This document shows positions 2,494 to 10,740 of a stretch of DNA of 64,000 nt, piece after piece. Source of the stretch: Oscillospiraceae bacterium (GTDB lineage: Bacteria > Bacillota > Clostridia > Oscillospirales > UBA929). The position numbers were made by a program, and so were the translations under genes. The stretch is taken from contig WRAI01000003.1 in the NCBI GenBank assembly GCA_009780275.1, forward strand, positions 1 to 64,000, written 5' to 3'. Position 1 is the stretch's first letter; each line of letters starts with the position of its first letter. The notes below the pieces were generated by a model that had not been told where the DNA came from, searched no databases, and saw only the letters and a program-made list of their open reading frames with translations.

Positions 2494-3189
2494 CTATGCG
2501 AAATTCGTGTACTCGACCAGACGGAACTCGCGGACAGCAAGGGTACCCTGGCCGACCCACATGCTCAAGCCCACAAGGACAAAAGAAAAGTTTTCGTAAT
2601 ATTCATTTCCTAAAACGCCCCTTATGATTTCCGCGAGCGATGCACGCCCCCTATAGTGCCCTGTATACAAACCATACTCAGAATCACCTCTAATCGCCGC
2701 ATCTACCCAAATGACACTGCCGAATACATCTAGAAAATGAATATGTGCTTCATCAGCCACTTCAACGTCAAAATAAAGATACGTATTCGCCCAAGAATTC
2801 TGCAAAATAGCCAATGGCTCATTCAACACATAATCGATAGCTGCCCAGCCAGCCGTGCCTTGAGCCCTATTAAAAATATAAACGCTGTTTTCTTCTGTTA
2901 TCTCAATAATATCTTCTTCCCATATCCGGTCTATATCGTCTTCATTCACGGTATATATTTCATCAAACTCAACACCAATCGTATGGCTAGGGATATAAAA
3001 TGGCCATTCTGTCTCACTGCCATCTGTCCAGCCATCCGTCGGCAAATCAAAGATGTCAAAGATGACTCGAGGCTCTGTATCATCTTCAATCGACGGCAGT
3101 ATCGCCACATTGCCATCTCCCGCGCAACCCCAAAGACTCACCAGCATAACTAAAGCAGCAACCATTGCCAAAATTTGTTTCCGATTCAT
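2494..3189 (-). CDS. Lipoprotein with one 'GGWP-family' surface module
   Basis: Secreted lipoprotein of 231 residues. The start chosen is the ATG at 3189, which gives a clean signal peptide (MNRKQILAMVAALVMLVSLW) followed by the lipobox cysteine in WGCAGD. The mature part begins VIFDIFDLPTDGW and ends with GLSMWVGQGTLAVREFRLVEY. These match the start (VVFDIFDIPTIAW) and end (GLTIWAVGGDVTVREFRLID) of the first repeat in the divergent surface protein at 3479. So the two neighbours carry the same roughly 180-residue beta-rich module. Its function is unknown; carbohydrate or wall binding is a guess from its partner. The two genes are divergent with separate promoters. Confidence 0.75.
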   Translation of the reverse strand: MNRKQILAMVAALVMLVSLWGCAGDGNVAILPSIEDDTEPRVIFDIFDLPTDGWTDGSETEWPFYIPSHTIGVEFDEIYTVNEDDIDRIWEEDIIEITEENSVYIFNRAQGTAGWAAIDYVLNEPLAILQNSWANTYLYFDVEVADEAHIHFLDVFGSVIWVDAAIRGDSEYGLYTGHYRGRASLAEIIRGVLGNEYYENFSFVLVGLSMWVGQGTLAVREFRLVEYTNFA

Positions 3190-3320
3190 GCAGCACCGCC
3201 GAATTTTTTTTATTTTATCCGATATTTTTGCCTGTTGATGTGTGTTGTTAGTGCAAGGCAACTTCTACGCCTCTTGCCATATAACATATACGTTGACCAA
3301 AATGCTTTACAATTACCGAC

Positions 3321-3350
3321 AGTATAACATAAATGTGACACATTTTACAA
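3321..3350 (-). promoter_or_regulatory. Promoter for the lipoprotein gene
   Basis: Minus-strand TTGTAA (3345-3350), 18-base spacer, TATACT (3321-3326). It would give a leader of about 125 bases before the ATG at 3189. Confidence 0.45.
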
Positions 3351-3403
3351 CGCTTATCGCAGCCAACACACAACATACAGCAAACTTAGCGGTAAAAAAC
3401 CAC

Positions 3404-3433
3404 TTGCCAGATTGCCACGTTGTGTGATATAAT
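3404..3433 (+). promoter_or_regulatory. Promoter for the SLH/deacetylase gene
   Basis: TTGCCA (3404-3409), 18-base spacer, consensus TATAAT (3428-3433). The predicted transcript starts about 40 bases before the gene. The rest of the 3190-3478 divergent gap holds only the two promoters and the ribosome sites. Confidence 0.55.
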
Positions 3434-3478
3434 AGGTCAATTATATGTGCGCGCACCAACTTTTAAGGAGAACAAATG

Positions 3479-6400
3479 ATGAGAACAAAACGTATCTTGG
3501 CACTTTTAGTCTGCCTGTCCCTGTTTATGAGCATGTTCGGCATCGCTGCTGCTACGCCTATTGCGCCGACCAACGCGAATAATGGTGTCGTGTTTGATAT
3601 CTTCGACATACCCACTATCGCCTGGGGCAGAGCTCCGGGCGGCGATGGTACAATCGGCAATATCACCAACCAAAATGGTGCCTACACGTTCCACAACGTC
3701 GGCGGCGGCTGGCCAAATGCCACCGTTACTTTTGGCGAGGAAATCCCTTTCTCACCGGAAGATTTGCACTACATTCATTTTCATTTTGATATTGAGGTTG
3801 CATACAACGCCAGCGTTCACTTTATCGACATTGACTTCCCCCAAGGCGCCAGAGCAAACTGGACGATTCAAGCTTTTGGCAACGGACTCACCGACGTTGG
3901 CGACCTCTTGCCCGGTCGTTATATCGGCAGTGCCAGCTTAGCCAACGTCATTGACTATCATTTTGAGCTTGAGCCAAACTCCAGCGACGGCTTTGACTTT
4001 GTATTCGGTACATTTCCGTTTGATGACCTTCTCTTTTCGGGTCTGACCATTTGGGCGGTCGGTGGCGACGTCACTGTCCGCGAATTCCGTTTAATTGACA
4101 CGCGCATTGTCGATATGCGCCCGCTCCCAACCTCGGAGATAGACACGCCTAACAGTTGGGCACATACATACATGCGCGACGCGTTGCAGCATGGCATCGT
4201 CGGTGCACAATTGCCTTCGGGTGTTGCTTTCCGCCAAGGCGCGCCACGCTGGTACATCGCTGAGCTTTTGGCTAACTTTATGGTTGTGTACAGCAACGCG
4301 GCAAACCTTGATGCCGTCGTTGCCAACTGGCTTGCCGTTGATGGCAATGTGCCCGGAAACATTAACTTTCCGGATGTGCCTGCGACTCATCCTCAATATG
4401 CGCAAATTACGGCGTTGGCAACCATGGGCGTTATTACGGGCGGCACATTTGACGGCGTGTTTGGCTTTGGCCCCAATCACACGCTGACGCGCGCGCAAGC
4501 CGCTGTTGGTTTGGCAAATATGATGAGGGCTTTGGGCTACGACATTACAAATTACGATGATGCTTCTGTCTTTGCCGATTGGGGCATTCCCGTGGCAAAC
4601 GGCGGCATTCAGTCTTGGGCGCATATGCCGGTTTCTTTCTTGTATCATTACGACGTGATGGGCAACACGACAAGTGAAATCAATCTACTTCCTGACGGCT
4701 CAAACTACGTATTCAGCCCCAACATGGCATTTGATACCCAACAGCTGATCACTGCTATGGTGCGTATGTTGTTAGAGGTTGAATGGCCAAGCCCCACGCT
4801 TGTTTCTATGCTTGACTTCCTTGATGTTCCGCCAAGCGCGTGGCGCGCCCTGCGTGTGGCCGGCGAAGCTGCACAAATCGATATTGTCAACGGCAACCTC
4901 GCTGTGCGCAACCTTGTCGGCGGTTGGCCAAGCCGTGTGCTTGACCTGCGCGATGAAAACATCAGCATTCCCGAAAGCGATTGGGATTACATTTCGCTTA
5001 TCATTGACGTAGATGTAACTGTCGCAAACTTTAACGGCTACGCCAACATCATCCTTTCGACCGATGCAGGCGACCGAGAGATAGTCGGTGAAGTAACCAT
5101 AGCACCTATCTCCGCACCGCAGCTAAGGGCAGGCAATCATCGTTTAACATTGCCTTTGCGGAGCATTTTGCCGAATGGAACAAGCGGCAGCATTGACATT
5201 GAGGGCATGCTGATTCAAGTGGTGCAAGCCGGTACGGTTGTCACAGTAAATCAATTGATGTTGCACGATAGCCGTGATGGGTACGAGTTCATTGCGCCCG
5301 AACCACAACCTGATCCTGAAGATGAGGCAAATTTCCTTGTTTTCGACACGGCCACTATCGTTGCGGGCGGCTCCGGCACGGCAACTGTCAGAGGCGACGG
5401 CAACGGTGGGCGCGTCACGATTACCAACAGCGGCGGCGGCTGGCCACGCGCCACTTTGACCGTTGCCAACCCGGTCGGCATTCCGCGCGACGAATGGCAC
5501 AACTATGAATTTGTCTATGACTTCACGGCATCCAGCAGCGGCGAGGTTTCCATCGCGTTGGTTAGCGAAGTTGAAGCAAATGCGCCTCGACACTACGCCT
5601 CCTTGACCAACTACTTACGCATTATGGGCGCGCAACGCGGCGGCGATGACAACGATATTGTCGGCAGCCGGTATTCCGGCACGGTCAACTTGCGCACCCT
5701 GCTGACCAGCATGCAATTTGACGCTGATGTGTTCTATATGTACGGCTTGTACGTTTTTGCCATCGGCGATGGTACGGTGGTTCGCGTTGATGCGGCGCAT
5801 GTTGTTCCGATTGAAGAAGAAGACGTTGAGTTGTTCCCCGCTGATCAAGTGCCGGTCATTCTTTATCACATGGTACTGCCATGTGCCATTTATGAGGAAA
5901 ACGGTTGGCAAAATAACAGCGTTGTTTTACGTTTGCGGCATTTTTATGAGCAAATGCGCTACCTGTACGAAGAGGGCTTTACGCCTATCACGGCATTGCA
6001 ATTTGAGGAATGGTTTTTTGACAACTCCGTGTTGTTACCCAAAAATCCTGTACTGTTGCACTTTGACGACGGCTATATGAGCGACTATATGTTTGCCGCC
6101 CCTGTCCTGCGTCAGTTCGGTTTCGTGGCAACAAATTTCCGACATACGGTAACAATCTATCCGCAATACCAGTGGAACACAGGGCGCTATGATCTCGTTG
6201 GCCAAGGCACAAACCATATGGCGAGACGTCACATGATTCGTACCAAAGATGTCTTTGAACACGCCTCGCATTCGCATGATATGCACCAAGGCGGCTGGCA
6301 TCTCAGCAATTTGTACAATCAACTTGGACATGCCGGACTGGTCTCTCACCTTCGCAACGACTTCCGCACAAGCATTAATGCTGCGCCCATGACCCTGCGC

Positions 6401-6628
6401 CATGTTTTTGCTTATACTTATGGCGTTAACAACGCCGCATACCATGAGGCATTAGAGGCAGAGGGCGTGACACACGCGTTTGATGTAACTCCTCAGCCGG
6501 CACGGCGCACGGATAATCGCTGGACCATCTCTCGCTATATGATTGACTCAGCCGGTTCACGTTCAAATTACCCGATGTGGCTGTTCAGCGCAATTGCCAA
6601 CGGCACAGCAGCAGGCAACCACGGCTAA
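3479..6628 (+). CDS. S-layer-anchored polysaccharide deacetylase with three repeated modules
   Basis: Exported surface protein of 1049 residues. AAGGAG lies 8 bases before the second of two tandem ATGs (3476/3479), so 3479 is preferred. Counting from 3476: signal peptide 1-27; module A about 38-210; three SLH-like repeats about 222-275, 298-352 and 365-433; module B about 445-600; module C about 618-780; NodB-type deacetylase domain about 792-1050. NodB motifs are visible: LLHFDDGY (metal and catalytic Asp at 864-865) and SHSHDMH (metal His 932 and 937). Each module carries GGWP (77-80, 482-485, 654-657). SLH repeats bind pyruvylated wall polymer. The NodB domain would deacetylate peptidoglycan or another wall glycan. 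The module recurs in the divergent lipoprotein. Confidence 0.85.
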   Translation: MRTKRILALLVCLSLFMSMFGIAAATPIAPTNANNGVVFDIFDIPTIAWGRAPGGDGTIGNITNQNGAYTFHNVGGGWPNATVTFGEEIPFSPEDLHYIHFHFDIEVAYNASVHFIDIDFPQGARANWTIQAFGNGLTDVGDLLPGRYIGSASLANVIDYHFELEPNSSDGFDFVFGTFPFDDLLFSGLTIWAVGGDVTVREFRLIDTRIVDMRPLPTSEIDTPNSWAHTYMRDALQHGIVGAQLPSGVAFRQGAPRWYIAELLANFMVVYSNAANLDAVVANWLAVDGNVPGNINFPDVPATHPQYAQITALATMGVITGGTFDGVFGFGPNHTLTRAQAAVGLANMMRALGYDITNYDDASVFADWGIPVANGGIQSWAHMPVSFLYHYDVMGNTTSEINLLPDGSNYVFSPNMAFDTQQLITAMVRMLLEVEWPSPTLVSMLDFLDVPPSAWRALRVAGEAAQIDIVNGNLAVRNLVGGWPSRVLDLRDENISIPESDWDYISLIIDVDVTVANFNGYANIILSTDAGDREIVGEVTIAPISAPQLRAGNHRLTLPLRSILPNGTSGSIDIEGMLIQVVQAGTVVTVNQLMLHDSRDGYEFIAPEPQPDPEDEANFLVFDTATIVAGGSGTATVRGDGNGGRVTITNSGGGWPRATLTVANPVGIPRDEWHNYEFVYDFTASSSGEVSIALVSEVEANAPRHYASLTNYLRIMGAQRGGDDNDIVGSRYSGTVNLRTLLTSMQFDADVFYMYGLYVFAIGDGTVVRVDAAHVVPIEEEDVELFPADQVPVILYHMVLPCAIYEENGWQNNSVVLRLRHFYEQMRYLYEEGFTPITALQFEEWFFDNSVLLPKNPVLLHFDDGYMSDYMFAAPVLRQFGFVATNFRHTVTIYPQYQWNTGRYDLVGQGTNHMARRHMIRTKDVFEHASHSHDMHQGGWHLSNLYNQLGHAGLVSHLRNDFRTSINAAPMTLRHVFAYTYGVNNAAYHEALEAEGVTHAFDVTPQPARRTDNRWTISRYMIDSAGSRSNYPMWLFSAIANGTAAGNHG

Positions 6629-6657
6629 TCACATACCGCTAACATATACTCAAAACT

Positions 6658-6689
6658 AAAAAACGCCCTCACTGTGAGGGCGTTTTTTT
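6658..6689. terminator. Bidirectional terminator between the deacetylase gene and tRNA-Val
   Basis: The arms CGCCCTCAC and GTGAGGGCG are flanked by six A on the left and seven T on the right, so it can end both the plus-strand deacetylase transcript and the minus-strand tRNA. The T run ends at the tRNA CCA. Confidence 0.85.
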
Positions 6690-6764
6690 GGTGGACGATA
6701 ACAGATTCGAACTGCTGACCCTTCGCACGTCAAGCGAATGCTCTACCAACTGAGCTAATCGTCC
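6689..6764 (-). tRNA. tRNA-Val (GAC), CCA encoded
   Basis: The minus strand folds into a full cloverleaf. The acceptor stem is GGACGAT/ATCGTCC; the D arm contains AGCTCAGTTGGTAGAGC; the anticodon stem TTCGC/GCGAA holds the loop TTGACGT with anticodon GAC; the T arm contains GTTCGAATC. The discriminator base is A and CCA is encoded (6689-6691). GAC reads the valine codon GUC. Confidence 0.95.
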
Positions 6765-6787
6765 AAGCACCAGGCAACGTTAATTCA

Positions 6788-6815
6788 TTATACACAAAAT
6801 TTACGACTTGTCAAT
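6788..6815 (-). promoter_or_regulatory. tRNA-Val promoter
   Basis: Minus-strand TTGACA (6810-6815), 16-base spacer, TATAAT (6788-6793). Both boxes are consensus, as expected for a stable RNA gene. Confidence 0.75.
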
Positions 6816-6820
6816 AGCCC

Positions 6821-6835
6821 GACAAGCATTGTCGA
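6821..6835. repeat. Short inverted repeat in the tRNA-Val / 6940 gene divergent gap
   Basis: CGACAA-GCA-TTGTCG, a perfect 6-bp dyad with a 3-base centre, just upstream of the tRNA -35 box. It could be a protein site. No T run follows, so it is not a terminator. Confidence 0.4.
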
Positions 6836-6866
6836 ACAAAAATTTTAATTCTCACCTAAAAATGTG

Positions 6867-6895
6867 TTGACATAACCTTTCTAACATGTTAGAAT
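6867..6895 (+). promoter_or_regulatory. Promoter of the 6940 gene with operator-like palindrome
   Basis: TTGACA (6867-6872), 17-base spacer, TAGAAT (6890-6895). A perfect 16-bp palindrome, TTCTAACATGTTAGAA (6879-6894), covers the spacer and most of the -10 box, the usual place for a repressor operator. An ATG at 6886 lies inside the promoter and is not the gene start. Confidence 0.65.
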
Positions 6896-6939
6896 TAGGT
6901 CAAGTATGGCAATCTATATCAAAGGGGAGTCAATGTAAT

Positions 6940-7809
6940 ATGAACGTTCACAACGACAATAGTAGCGGTTTCGGCGACTGTGCCGGACACAATATGCCCG
7001 TGGGCGGCGGTCATCCCGATCCAAACGCCTATGGTCATGGCAATATGGACGGCATCAGCGGCATTCCCGCGCCCAATGCCGTGCCTTATCAACACGCACC
7101 GAATTACTATGAGCCCCACCCCGCTGCACCGCTCGATCATGGACAATCTCAATCTATTGGTACGGCATATCCGCCGCAAGCGACGCCCGCCGTGCCGACG
7201 GGCTATGTGCCGTACGACGCAAACACGTATCCAACTGAGCAACAGGCCTACTACACCGCGCCGCCCGCAGATAGCACTCATGTTGCCAGCGACGCTTTAC
7301 AAGACCAACTGGCACAACTGTCGAGTTTAGTTTATTACGACAGCGGCAGCATCAACGCCAACACCAATTTTTCGCTGTTTTATCACAACGCATTCACACA
7401 AAAACTGCGCTTTGAAATGGCAAATATGATGATTGTCGCTGACCACTACACCGCGGTGTTTGATACATTGCAATCGGTGGCACAACTGTTTTCCGAAAGC
7501 GGTTTTGCCGGACTTCCAACCGCTAAAAGCATGACAAACAGCCAATTTATGAAAAATTTGCTCACACTGATGGGTGATTCATGGCCTGAAAACGCCGAAC
7601 ATACACCATTCGCCCGTGCCATGTATTGGGTGTTGCCGACATTGTTATCGGGCGCGTCACGTGACCGTACATTCATTGAAAACACACTTTACTACGAAGG
7701 TTTACTGATGATTGCTTGCGGCAATTATACATATAACATGGTACAATTTCGGTTGTTAGGCCTATTGGGCATTCAGCTGTCACTGGAAGAGTGCTTGGCA
7801 CAGGACTGA
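6940..7809 (+). CDS. Unknown protein with Pro/Tyr/Gly/His-rich N-terminus
   Basis: I do not recognise this 289-residue protein. AAAGGGGAG lies 9-10 bases before the ATG at 6940. Residues 1 to about 120 are low complexity, rich in Pro, Tyr, Gly, His and Asn, with no signal peptide. The remaining roughly 170 residues look globular and mostly helical, with aromatic and Met-rich segments (EMANMMIVADHY, YYEGLLMIACGNYTYNMVQF). A disordered Pro/Tyr-rich head on a helical core resembles some spore-coat or scaffold proteins, but that is only an analogy. The strong promoter with an overlapping palindrome says the gene is regulated on its own. The O-methyltransferase follows 11 bases later and probably shares the transcript. 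Confidence 0.6.
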   Translation: MNVHNDNSSGFGDCAGHNMPVGGGHPDPNAYGHGNMDGISGIPAPNAVPYQHAPNYYEPHPAAPLDHGQSQSIGTAYPPQATPAVPTGYVPYDANTYPTEQQAYYTAPPADSTHVASDALQDQLAQLSSLVYYDSGSINANTNFSLFYHNAFTQKLRFEMANMMIVADHYTAVFDTLQSVAQLFSESGFAGLPTAKSMTNSQFMKNLLTLMGDSWPENAEHTPFARAMYWVLPTLLSGASRDRTFIENTLYYEGLLMIACGNYTYNMVQFRLLGLLGIQLSLEECLAQD

Positions 7810-7820
7810 TTTAAGAGTAC

Positions 7821-8480
7821 ATGGACGTTTGGGTCAGCAATGATTCTTTCATAAGCGAATTTCTTGTTGAAGAAGATGTCGCGCTAAAACAGGCCTTTGA
7901 GCGCAGCCGAGAACTCAATTTGCCTGATATGGAAATATCTCCTGCACAAGGAAAATTTTTGTACTTGTTGGCACGCATTAAAAACGCCAAACGCATCCTC
8001 GAAATCGGCACATTTTGCGGTTACAGCACAATTTGGTTGGCGAAAGCCGTTGCCGATGGCGGCATTGTGATCAGCCTCGAATGCGATGAAAGCTACGCCA
8101 ACATAGCGAAAAAAAATATAGACAGTGCCGGCCTTTCAAATCAAGCGACTGTCTTGACAGGCGATGCGATTAATTTATTGAACCAAATGATTGCCGCCAA
8201 AGAAGAGTATTTCGATATGATTTTTATCGATGCCGATAAACCCAACTATCCCCAATATTTGGAGTTATCTTTGCAACTTGCAAAAAATGGCACGATTATC
8301 TGTGGCGACAATGTCATCCGTAATGGTGAACTGGTTAATACCGACAATTTCGACCCCAAAGTACAAGGTGTCCGACGATTTGTAGAGATGTTGGGACATA
8401 TGAAAGCTCTCGAGTCAACCGCGCTACAAACTGTCGGTGTAAAAGGGTATGACGGCTTTACTGTAAGCATTGTCAAATAA
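7821..8480 (+). CDS. SAM-dependent O-methyltransferase (YrrM/CCoAMT-like)
   Basis: Class I methyltransferase of 219 residues, the usual length. The SAM-binding motif I is ILEIGTFCGYSTIWLA. An acidic motif II (VISLECDESYANIAKKN) follows, then the metal/catalytic segment FDMIFIDADKPNYPQYLE and later ICGDNVIRNG. These are the hallmarks of the catechol/caffeoyl-CoA O-methyltransferase fold, including Bacillus YrrM, a tRNA-modifying enzyme (TrmR). Which substrate it uses cannot be read here; a tRNA role is plausible given nearby tRNA-maturation genes. The ribosome site is weak and the gene sits 11 bases after the preceding one, so it is probably the second gene of that unit, ending at the terminator at 8500. 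Confidence 0.85.
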   Translation: MDVWVSNDSFISEFLVEEDVALKQAFERSRELNLPDMEISPAQGKFLYLLARIKNAKRILEIGTFCGYSTIWLAKAVADGGIVISLECDESYANIAKKNIDSAGLSNQATVLTGDAINLLNQMIAAKEEYFDMIFIDADKPNYPQYLELSLQLAKNGTIICGDNVIRNGELVNTDNFDPKVQGVRRFVEMLGHMKALESTALQTVGVKGYDGFTVSIVK

Positions 8481-8499
8481 CCACCTTACTTTCTCTAAG

Positions 8500-8531
8500 C
8501 AGGCGGCACGATTTGTGCCGCCTGTTTTTTT
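8500..8531 (+). terminator. Rho-independent terminator after the O-methyltransferase
   Basis: CAGGCGGCAC-GATTT-GTGCCGCCTG followed by seven T. A strong 10-bp stem. Its GGCGGCA/TGCCGCC core recurs in other terminators of this window. Confidence 0.9.
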
Positions 8532-8533
8532 GT

Positions 8534-8562
8534 TTGACATTCTTGCCACGCCACGGTATAAT
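8534..8562 (+). promoter_or_regulatory. cysE-cysS promoter
   Basis: TTGACA (8534-8539), 17-base spacer, TATAAT (8557-8562): a perfect sigma-A consensus promoter. The transcript should start near 8569. It sits right behind the terminator and likely drives the long cysE to tsaD run. Confidence 0.85.
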
Positions 8563-8610
8563 ACATATACTGAACGTAGGGCTGTGCTTTGCACACCCGC
8601 AACGCACAGC

Positions 8611-8624
8611 AGGAGGTGCCTCCT
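8611..8624 (+). promoter_or_regulatory. cysE ribosome site within a small inverted repeat
   Basis: AGGAGGTGCCTCCT: the Shine-Dalgarno site is followed directly by its own complement. A 5-bp stem (AGGAG/CTCCT) with a GTGC loop could mask the site and lower translation initiation. The hairpin is short, so any effect may be modest. Confidence 0.4.
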
Positions 8625-8626
8625 AT

Positions 8627-9274
8627 ATGTTCAAGCAATGGAAAGAAGACATCGCCGCCATTCGGACACGTGACCCGGCAGCGCGAAATAATTTTGAAGT
8701 ATTTTTCCTGTACGCCGGATTCAAGGCACTGCGGCGGCATCGCCGTGCCCATTGGTGGTACAATCGAAAACATTATTTCATCGCCCGCTGGATTTCCGAG
8801 CGCACGCGGCGCAAAACGGGCATTGAAATTCACCCTGCCGCCAAAATCGGAAAAGGGCTTTTTATCGACCACGGTTCCGGCGTTGTCATTGGCGAAACGG
8901 TCGAAATTGGCGACAATGTGACCATCTACCAAGGTGTGACGCTGGGCGGCACGGGCAAGGATAAAGGCAAACGCCACCCTAGCATTGGCAACAATGTGTT
9001 GATTGGCGCAGGTGCCGCAATATTGGGGCCGTTTACCGTGCATGACAATGCGCGGATTGCCAGCGGCGCGGTAGTGCTGAAAGAAGTGCCTGAAAACGCT
9101 ACGGCAGTGGGCGTTCCGGCGCGAATTGTCCGCATTGGCGACCAAAAAATATCGCCCCTTGACCACGTGAATACGCCCGACCCGGTCAACCAATGCATTT
9201 CACAGTTGCAGAAAGATGTTGACGAATTAAAGGCTAAGCTCGGCATACAGCGCGACACTAACGGCGCACTGTAG
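8627..9274 (+). CDS. cysE: Serine O-acetyltransferase
   Basis: Makes O-acetylserine from serine and acetyl-CoA, the first step of cysteine synthesis. It is 215 residues, the short Gram-positive form. The ATG at 8627 has AGGAGG 10 bases upstream. The left-handed beta-helix hexapeptide repeats are clear (GIEIHPAAKIGKGLFIDHG, VVIGETVEIGDNVTIYQGVTLGG). Active-site histidines occur in the DHGSG and KRHP contexts. The C-terminal tail has a Gln/Lys/Asp-rich predicted coiled coil. The cysE-cysS order is common in Firmicutes and links cysteine supply to its charging on tRNA. Confidence 0.95.
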   Translation: MFKQWKEDIAAIRTRDPAARNNFEVFFLYAGFKALRRHRRAHWWYNRKHYFIARWISERTRRKTGIEIHPAAKIGKGLFIDHGSGVVIGETVEIGDNVTIYQGVTLGGTGKDKGKRHPSIGNNVLIGAGAAILGPFTVHDNARIASGAVVLKEVPENATAVGVPARIVRIGDQKISPLDHVNTPDPVNQCISQLQKDVDELKAKLGIQRDTNGAL

Positions 9275-9314
9275 CGAATTGTGCGGACAAATACTGTTTG
9301 CTCACAAGTTGATA

Positions 9315-9332
9315 ATCTTACCAAGGTAAGAT
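9315..9332 (+). repeat. Inverted repeat between cysE and cysS
   Basis: ATCTTACC-AA-GGTAAGAT, 8-bp perfect arms, in the 83-base gap before cysS. In RNA it would make a tight hairpin about 25 bases before the start codon; as DNA it could be a dyad operator. No T run follows, so it is not a terminator, and the gap is too short for a T-box. Confidence 0.45.
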
Positions 9333-9357
9333 GTCATGCCCTACAACAGGAGGAACT

Positions 9358-10740
9358 ATGCTCAAATTTTACAATACACGCTCCCGCCAAAAAGAGGATT
9401 TCATGCCACTGGCCACCGATACCGTTTCCATTTATACCTGTGGCCCGACGGTTTATGCACAGGCGCATATCGGTAACTTGCGCGCTTATCTGTTCATGGA
9501 CAGTTTGCGTCGCATCTTGCGTCGCAATGGCTACACGCTTCGACACTGCATGAATATCACCGACGTAGGTCACTTAACTGATGACGGCGATGACGGCGAA
9601 GATAAAATGAGCGCTGCCGCAAAAAAACAAAGGCTGTCACCATGGGACATCGCTAAGCATTATACCGAACTTTTTATGCGCGATATGGAGGCATTGCACA
9701 TCGACTTGCCCGAAATCATCACACCCGCAACGGGTTATATTGACGATATGATTGATTTCGTACAAGCCTTACAAGATAAAGGTTACGCCTATGAAATTGA
9801 CGATGGCGTTTATTTTGATATATCTAAATTCCCTGAATACGGCCAGCTTGCCCGCTTGAATCTTGACGAACAAAAGGCAGGCGCGCGCGTTGAAGTCAAC
9901 AACCAAAAGCGCAACCCCTTTGACTTCGCGTTGTGGAAAAAGGCCGAACCGTCGCACATTATGCAGTGGCCGTCGCCGTGGGGACAGGGCTATCCCGGCT
10001 GGCATATCGAGTGTTCAGCCATTTCCCGCCACCATTTGGGCGATATGTTCGACATTCACACCGGTGGCGAGGATCATATCCCTGTCCATCACGAAAATGA
10101 AATCGCGCAATCCTGCGCCCTGCTGGGTCATGCGGGCGCGAAATTATGGATGCACAACGCCTTTTTACAAGTCGATGGCGGCAAAATGGGCAAAAGTTTG
10201 GGTAACGCTTACACGCTGGATGATTTGCGTGACAAGGGCTACGCGCCTGTACATTACCGCTACCTCTGCACTAACGCACACTATCGCAGCAAATGCAATT
10301 TCACTTGGGACGGCATCGCGGCCGCCAAGACGGCACAGCAACGTTACGCGGCCACCATTAAGGCACATCAAGGCAAAACGTCGCCTGATTTAGATATTGC
10401 ACAGCTTGAAGCTCATCGCACGGCCTTTGACGAGGCGCTCAATGATGATTTGAATCTGCCCAAAGCCTTAGGTATCGCGCATACAACAGCAAAATTACCC
10501 TTTGACGATCGTGTGTATCAAGCATTGTTGTCGTTTGACGAAGTGTTGCAACTGTTACATGACGCCCCAAATGATGAAATTAAGGACCTCCCCGCCGAAA
10601 TTACGACACTGTTGGAACAACGCGCTAATGCTCGCTCAGCAAAGGATTGGGCTCAGAGCGACAGCTTGCGTGACACCATCGCTGCCGCCGGATACACCGT
10701 TAAGGACACCGCCAACGGACAGGAGTGTGCAAAATCGTGA
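9358..10740 (+). CDS. cysS: Cysteinyl-tRNA synthetase
   Basis: Class I aminoacyl-tRNA synthetase of 460 residues. The start is the ATG at 9358, with AGGAGG 4 bases upstream. The HIGH signature is HIGN in VYAQAHIGNLRAY, and the KMSKS loop is KMGKS in GGKMGKSLGN. The zinc ligands that select cysteine are visible as TCGPTVY, WHIECSA and the HHENE stretch. The DALR anticodon-binding region fills the C-terminal third. Its TGA overlaps the GTG start of polA, so the two are translationally linked. Confidence 0.97.
   Translation: MLKFYNTRSRQKEDFMPLATDTVSIYTCGPTVYAQAHIGNLRAYLFMDSLRRILRRNGYTLRHCMNITDVGHLTDDGDDGEDKMSAAAKKQRLSPWDIAKHYTELFMRDMEALHIDLPEIITPATGYIDDMIDFVQALQDKGYAYEIDDGVYFDISKFPEYGQLARLNLDEQKAGARVEVNNQKRNPFDFALWKKAEPSHIMQWPSPWGQGYPGWHIECSAISRHHLGDMFDIHTGGEDHIPVHHENEIAQSCALLGHAGAKLWMHNAFLQVDGGKMGKSLGNAYTLDDLRDKGYAPVHYRYLCTNAHYRSKCNFTWDGIAAAKTAQQRYAATIKAHQGKTSPDLDIAQLEAHRTAFDEALNDDLNLPKALGIAHTTAKLPFDDRVYQALLSFDEVLQLLHDAPNDEIKDLPAEITTLLEQRANARSAKDWAQSDSLRDTIAAAGYTVKDTANGQECAKS

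Follow-up and report, generated by a model that had tools for sequence, protein, structure and literature searches.

A protein module that recurs in two divergent genes of a gut-type Oscillospiraceae bacterium, one for a lipoprotein and one for a polysaccharide deacetylase, is quite probably a non-catalytic carbohydrate-binding module (CBM) with a predicted beta-sandwich (jelly-roll) fold. This putative CBM is structurally nearest to CBM11 and CBM30, forms a sequence family of its own, and would hold polysaccharide near the cell. Both genes lie in the window, i.e. the 64,000-nucleotide stretch of contig WRAI01000003.1 that was analysed; the source genome comprises 2.09 Mb in 49 contigs and is 97% complete with 2% contamination.

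Module copies in the lipoprotein and the deacetylase

The features of the two genes are as follows (i-E, independent E-value in the profile search).

2494-3189, minus strand: lipoprotein gene, 231 amino acids, with signal peptide, lipobox LWGC (Cys22) and one module, from the open reading frame and a reading of lipobox and tail
2506-3069, minus strand: module copy A, lipoprotein residues 41-228 (i-E 2e-37; BLASTP to B1 9e-12)
3190-3475, no strand: intergenic region of 286 bp separating the divergent lipoprotein and deacetylase genes
3476-6628, plus strand: deacetylase gene, 1050 amino acids, secreted, with signal peptide, B1, three SLH-like repeats, B2, B3 and a NodB-type catalytic domain
3584-4105, plus strand: module copy B1, deacetylase residues 37-210 (i-E 2e-54)
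4148-4786, plus strand: SLH-like region of three repeats, the middle one (4367-4504) passing Pfam PF00395 (3.6e-9)
4802-5275, plus strand: module copy B2, deacetylase residues 443-600 (i-E 1.2e-33)
5324-5815, plus strand: module copy B3, deacetylase residues 617-780 (i-E 1.9e-35)
5831-6595, plus strand: NodB-type polysaccharide deacetylase domain of the PgaB/IcaB branch (TIGR03938 1e-13, TIGR03933 7e-9; PDB 3vus/4wcj/4f9d)

BLASTP with a 100,000-letter database connected B1 to A (E-value 9e-12), B2 (3e-6) and B3 (1e-5), and hhalign was concordant. Pairwise similarity was not detectable for A-B2 and A-B3, which were joined via B1 and a profile of 20-68 relatives. All four copies scored well above threshold (i-E 2e-33 to 2e-54) against an iterative profile of the genome's own copies, the training set of which includes the window copies. 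The results confirmed, at the level of sequence comparison, that A, B1, B2 and B3 are homologous copies of one module family of about 160-190 residues. The first-pass annotation, which had described an uncharacterised module common to the lipoprotein (one copy) and the deacetylase (three copies), was thus borne out by BLASTP, hhalign and the profile, and the module had no Pfam or PDB-sequence match. In the profile and fold comparisons the copies neither mapped to different known folds nor proved non-homologous.

The motifs of that annotation were found in part of the copies. GGWP is present in B1, B2 and B3, whereas copy A has GW-A (GWA) there, without the proline, and the closing VREFRL is confined to A and B1 and lacking in B2 and B3. 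The most conserved positions among 68 family members were W14 (W in 60/68), W43 of GGWP (W in 53/68) and P44 (63/68), with further conservation at D69 (58/68), G111 (59/68) and an aromatic residue at 113. Copy A carries an acidic insertion of about 25 residues behind its N-terminal part, and the likely true start of the lipoprotein is the ATG at 3189 rather than the TTG at 3261.

Module copies showed no significant match in Pfam, NCBIfam or PDB sequence searches, and no Pfam model, including CBM_11, matched 20 module copies at E <= 1. A scan of genome contigs with one own-genome copy as the query retrieved no named relative, and a literature search of incomplete coverage found no prior description of such a module. 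The module is therefore supported, as far as sequence searches go, as an unnamed and uncharacterised domain family. A CHU_C/T9SS match of the lipoprotein (E 0.03-0.07) was rejected as chance, the organism not being a Bacteroidete.

In the deacetylase, the SLH region divides B1 from B2 and B3, which stand together behind it; it does not part every copy from the following one. Of the three SLH repeats proposed, a single one (residues 298-343; 36.9 bits vs the PF00395 gathering cut-off of 20.8) was scored by Pfam, also when tested piecewise, and the flanking two are SLH-like only via a pattern recurring in eight paralogues. The Pfam match of the catalytic domain is weak, and its placement in the PgaB/IcaB branch came from NCBIfam and PDB sequences. 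The motifs FDDGY, HSHDMH and HVFAYTYG, NodB-type metal and catalytic motifs, were all read in the sequence. Since the protein scored below the NCBIfam equivalog cut-offs (50.5 bits vs 321.9 and 35.5 vs 248.35), no substrate was assigned. It shares the catalytic domain and the metal and catalytic motifs with the PgaB/IcaB N-deacetylases (3vus, 4wcj), but differs from them in being SLH-anchored, in bearing three accessory modules and in falling below those cut-offs. The deacetylase and an O-methyltransferase-like gene flank window positions 6886-7809, which encode a 307-amino-acid protein with a Gly/Pro/His-rich N-terminal half and no Pfam match.

Predicted fold and possible relation to CBM11

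The AlphaFold2 models of B1 (pLDDT 80.4, pTM 0.76) and of copy L078 from another family of the order, f19 (pLDDT 91.3, pTM 0.86), were both beta-sandwiches; the two are not fully independent because alignment rows are common to both. Foldseek against PDB placed CBM11 first for both models (E 2e-4 and 4e-5; TM-score about 0.52-0.55), followed by CBM70, 30, 27, 22, 29, 4 and 61 among others. The models support a fold of the glycan-binding, CBM11-type beta-sandwich kind, which agrees with the fold side of the earlier proposal of a wall- or glycan-binding domain (CBM11, CBM70, CBM30 and CBM22 leading the lists). The module also appears as a discrete, independently folding, non-catalytic domain, as is general for CBMs: its isolated fold was predicted confidently, and it is fused to NodB, GH26, NAGPA or SGNH domains or stands alone on an anchor. 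The glycan-binding interpretation is held because of this fold and the association with carbohydrate genes described below, which are the main functional evidence. The analysis shows homology, copy number, anchors, gene context and a predicted fold; from these we infer sugar binding, the identity of the ligand and a capture-and-uptake role.

Several observations weigh against it. A TM-score of about 0.55 with a root-mean-square deviation above 5 A denotes fold-level likeness only, not close kinship, and the beta-sandwiches that scored in Foldseek also include non-sugar ones (Eph receptor, Cry and FlaA1 domains). The hhalign comparison with a CBM11 profile built from sequences collected here was weak (probability 12%, P 0.002), although colinear over 142 columns. 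Moreover, the module was also found fused to a subtilase, so it is not confined to enzymes acting on glycans.

The CBM11 score of 24.2, at this 12% probability, exceeded all 60 column shuffles (maximum 16.2) and the reversed profile, which suggests, but does not prove, kinship with CBM11. The module might accordingly be classified as a divergent CBM11/CIA30 subfamily missed by the curated models, an assignment compatible with carbohydrate binding and concerning classification only. CBM11 came first in both fold searches and the colinear profile comparison surpassed its shuffles; no Pfam model including CBM_11 matches the 20 copies, however, PF03425 (CBM11) had no match in the source genome, and the profile probability is low, so we regard this assignment as possible but doubtful. 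CBM11 of Clostridium thermocellum Lic26A-Cel5E (PDB 1v0a, 6r31) resembles the module in being a beta-sandwich of about 170 residues (predicted for the module) appended to modular surface enzymes. The two differ in that identity is about 11%, that no Pfam CBM_11 match exists and profile similarity is weak, and that W14, GGWP, D69 and a GxYxG pattern are the module's own. CBM11 binds beta-1,3-1,4-glucan in a tyrosine-lined cleft.

Copies, partners and subtypes in the genome and the order

Profile searches of the source genome revealed about 35 copies in 22 mostly surface proteins on 14 contigs, far more than the four of the pair described at first; 32 came from the window and twelve further stretches and three more from contigs C24, C13 and C29. 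Contamination as their source was rejected, since the 14 contigs include large ones and genome contamination is 2%. Partners acting on glycans or on glycan-linked phosphates or esters were, by Pfam, the NodB deacetylase, NAGPA (phosphodiester glycosidase; two proteins), PHP (two), SGNH/GDSL, metallophosphatase and GH26 (one, plus a paralogue by similarity). Pfam also identified the subtilase partner, and the partner protein with CotH additionally bears dockerin and RCC1. Some carriers are SLH proteins without an enzyme domain. A 2058-amino-acid SLH protein with a Big_2 domain (L039, on contig C18 of G000; 4415-10588) holds at least nine copies of several subtypes.

About ten carriers have an SLH anchor. 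A lipobox was identified in the window lipoprotein, in a single array protein and, as judged by eye, in a protein on contig C11, and the SGNH protein has a transmembrane (TM) anchor. Six sortases are encoded in the genome, as is a CsaB-like pyruvyl transferase, and NPxTxD-TM-Lys tails of the kind described below may serve as sortase signals. The module had been thought to help place the deacetylase on the S-layer. Because SLH-free proteins with a lipobox or a TM/sortase tail carry it just as much, such a role is unnecessary, and SLH is the evident anchor. Large pilin/adhesin-like surface proteins adjoin module genes at L092:5227-8001 and L094:4325-8278, one near a sortase (C24:34211).

The same partners and anchors bear on another ligand. 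The module could bind a glycopolymer of the cell's own wall (a secondary wall polymer, or one of teichoic or poly-N-acetylglucosamine-like type) and position wall-remodelling enzymes instead of capturing nutrients, which we consider rather unlikely. It stays a serious competitor to the nutrient-glycan interpretation because deacetylases and phosphoesterases of wall type (PgaB/IcaB-like deacetylase, NAGPA, PHP, metallo-phosphoesterases) abound among the partner enzymes, rather than classic plant-fibre hydrolases; many carriers are SLH proteins, and the CsaB-like enzyme is present. However, most carriers are already anchored by SLH, lipobox or TM tails, which would make a second wall ligand redundant, and stand-alone copies with sugar importers and with GH3 or GH36 (below) point to nutrient glycans.

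In the tree, A and B1 fell in a supported five-member clade (98/96), B2 in a clade with the second copy of a NAGPA protein on contig C10 (95/91), and B3 with a GH26-like protein on contig C24 (82/80). Tandem duplication of one module within the deacetylase was rejected, as B1, B2 and B3 lie in three different clades, and for the same reason they need not share a ligand. The earlier suggestion that lipoprotein and deacetylase hold the same ligand is hence plausible for A and B1, but not for B2 and B3, which fall into different subfamilies. The pattern appears to reflect a lineage-specific expansion into subtypes.

Contig C4 has a tandem array of six single-module genes at L031:2608-7750 (L031 being G000:C4:11000-22000). 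The array lies directly behind genes for four CUT1-like sugar ABC permeases and for DUF5696 and Yip1 proteins; a FAD oxidoreductase gene follows. Of the six products, one is a lipoprotein, four end in NP(K/P)T(S/A)D-TM-Lys tails and the sixth ends in a plain TM-Lys tail. Different enzyme-borne copies had array members as their nearest relatives (100/99, 100/100, 100/100 and 84/82), a pairing that would be predicted if both kinds of copy recognise the same, matched ligands. One subtype-matched pair consists of array member C4arr_6800 and the NAGPA copy of contig C1. The next gene, L031:9456-10961, encodes an unnamed protein of a family of about 390-500 amino acids. Relatives of this protein (blastp 2e-46, 3e-8 and 8e-9) are fused to the module on contig C11 (L040:695-3040) and adjoin a module copy in a genome from a different family within the order (L110, plus-strand neighbour).

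With the first profile, the module was found in 0/17 other genomes of the same family, in 25/394 genomes of the order (the source genome and 24 of family f19), and in 1/391 evenly sampled genomes of the class, that one being the source genome. A broader profile added three further genomes in the order, one of them from a third family, f23. Altogether, roughly 790 genomes were sampled. Named f19 records are Clostridia/Oscillospiraceae metagenome-assembled genomes from the ruminant gut. Profile comparison joined own and f19 copies into one family (99.8%, E 1.6e-27). The restricted, patchy distribution fits a lineage-specific expansion after transfer or loss. Phage or plasmid origin was not supported, since no module turned up when viral contigs, plasmids and phages were scanned.

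The f19 genomes usually carry one to five copies each, and among those read no SLH was seen. The usual form consists of signal peptide, module, acidic or Ser-rich linker, TM segment and Lys tail. Such single-module membrane-anchored genes are divergent from or next to GH3 at six loci (L076-L080 and L085), and at L086 the module gene adjoins GH36; Pfam was applied to the GH36 and to a single GH3 (L077), the remaining GH3 genes being read by eye. In several f19 species, the module gene and GH3 are candidates for a conserved gene pair under a common control region. Other f19 module proteins contain SGNH, F5/8C or dockerin domains by Pfam, and CBM9-like and cohesin-like parts by eye only. The SGNH-module-TM architecture occurs in both the own lineage and f19, and the module copies of these proteins group together across the two lineages, with a fork that is not strongly supported (89/90).

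The very high copy number and the subtype pairing between anchored array proteins and enzyme copies might also point to docking partners. The module would then be a domain for protein-protein contact or S-layer assembly (a Firmicutes surface adhesin or spacer of jelly-roll fold) with no sugar ligand, and its occurrence in a subtilase agrees with this. However, its top structural neighbours are CBMs, the surrounding genes are carbohydrate genes, and the few copies per f19 genome, with no SLH seen in those read, leave no obvious docking network. Such a role thus seems improbable, and glycan binding is preferred.

Proposed role at the cell surface

As a carbohydrate-binding module, an enzyme-borne copy would keep the substrate polysaccharide close to the SLH-anchored catalytic domain. 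The window deacetylase may grip its polymer with three module types during NodB action, and the lipoprotein, with its B1-clade module, would hold a similar polymer closer to the membrane. As the family is split into subtypes, one enzyme with B1, B2 and B3 probably contacts several glycan features. Stand-alone proteins with lipobox, TM or sortase tails would provide surface glycan capture beside glycosidases and sugar ABC importers.

Comparable arrangements are known from Bacteroidota. CBM112, a recently founded family with proven mannan binding, is a beta-mannan module that shares with the present one its occurrence both within enzymes (GH26, esterase) and in proteins that stand alone, putatively as surface glycan binders, in sugar-utilisation loci (PMC13357471). 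It belongs to another phylum, and the likeness is organisational only, not drawn from sequence comparison. The C-terminal domain of BT2081 is a galactose-binding-domain-like jelly roll whose fold and context led to the inference of carbohydrate binding, and CBM11 ranks among its most similar sites (PMC2954218); the likeness of this Bacteroides family to the module is likewise organisational only.

In summary, the module appears to be a new sequence family among beta-sandwich CBM-like domains, with putative binding and an unusual expansion within one genome. More tentatively, it may be a new glycan-binding family amplified into a genome-wide set of subtypes in one Clostridia genus, in which the six-gene operon would be a Gram-positive counterpart of Bacteroidetes surface glycan-binding (SGBP/SusE-F-like) proteins and, with matching SLH-anchored enzyme subtypes, would form a surface glycan-capture and -processing network without cellulosome-type scaffolding. 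If confirmed, the finding would establish a new family of CBM type from uncultured gut Clostridia and would account for polymer holding at the surface of these bacteria without cellulosomes. It would also provide one tag for finding the surface glycan machinery of the lineage, covering, in a single genome of 2.1 Mb, about 35 domains that otherwise lack annotation.

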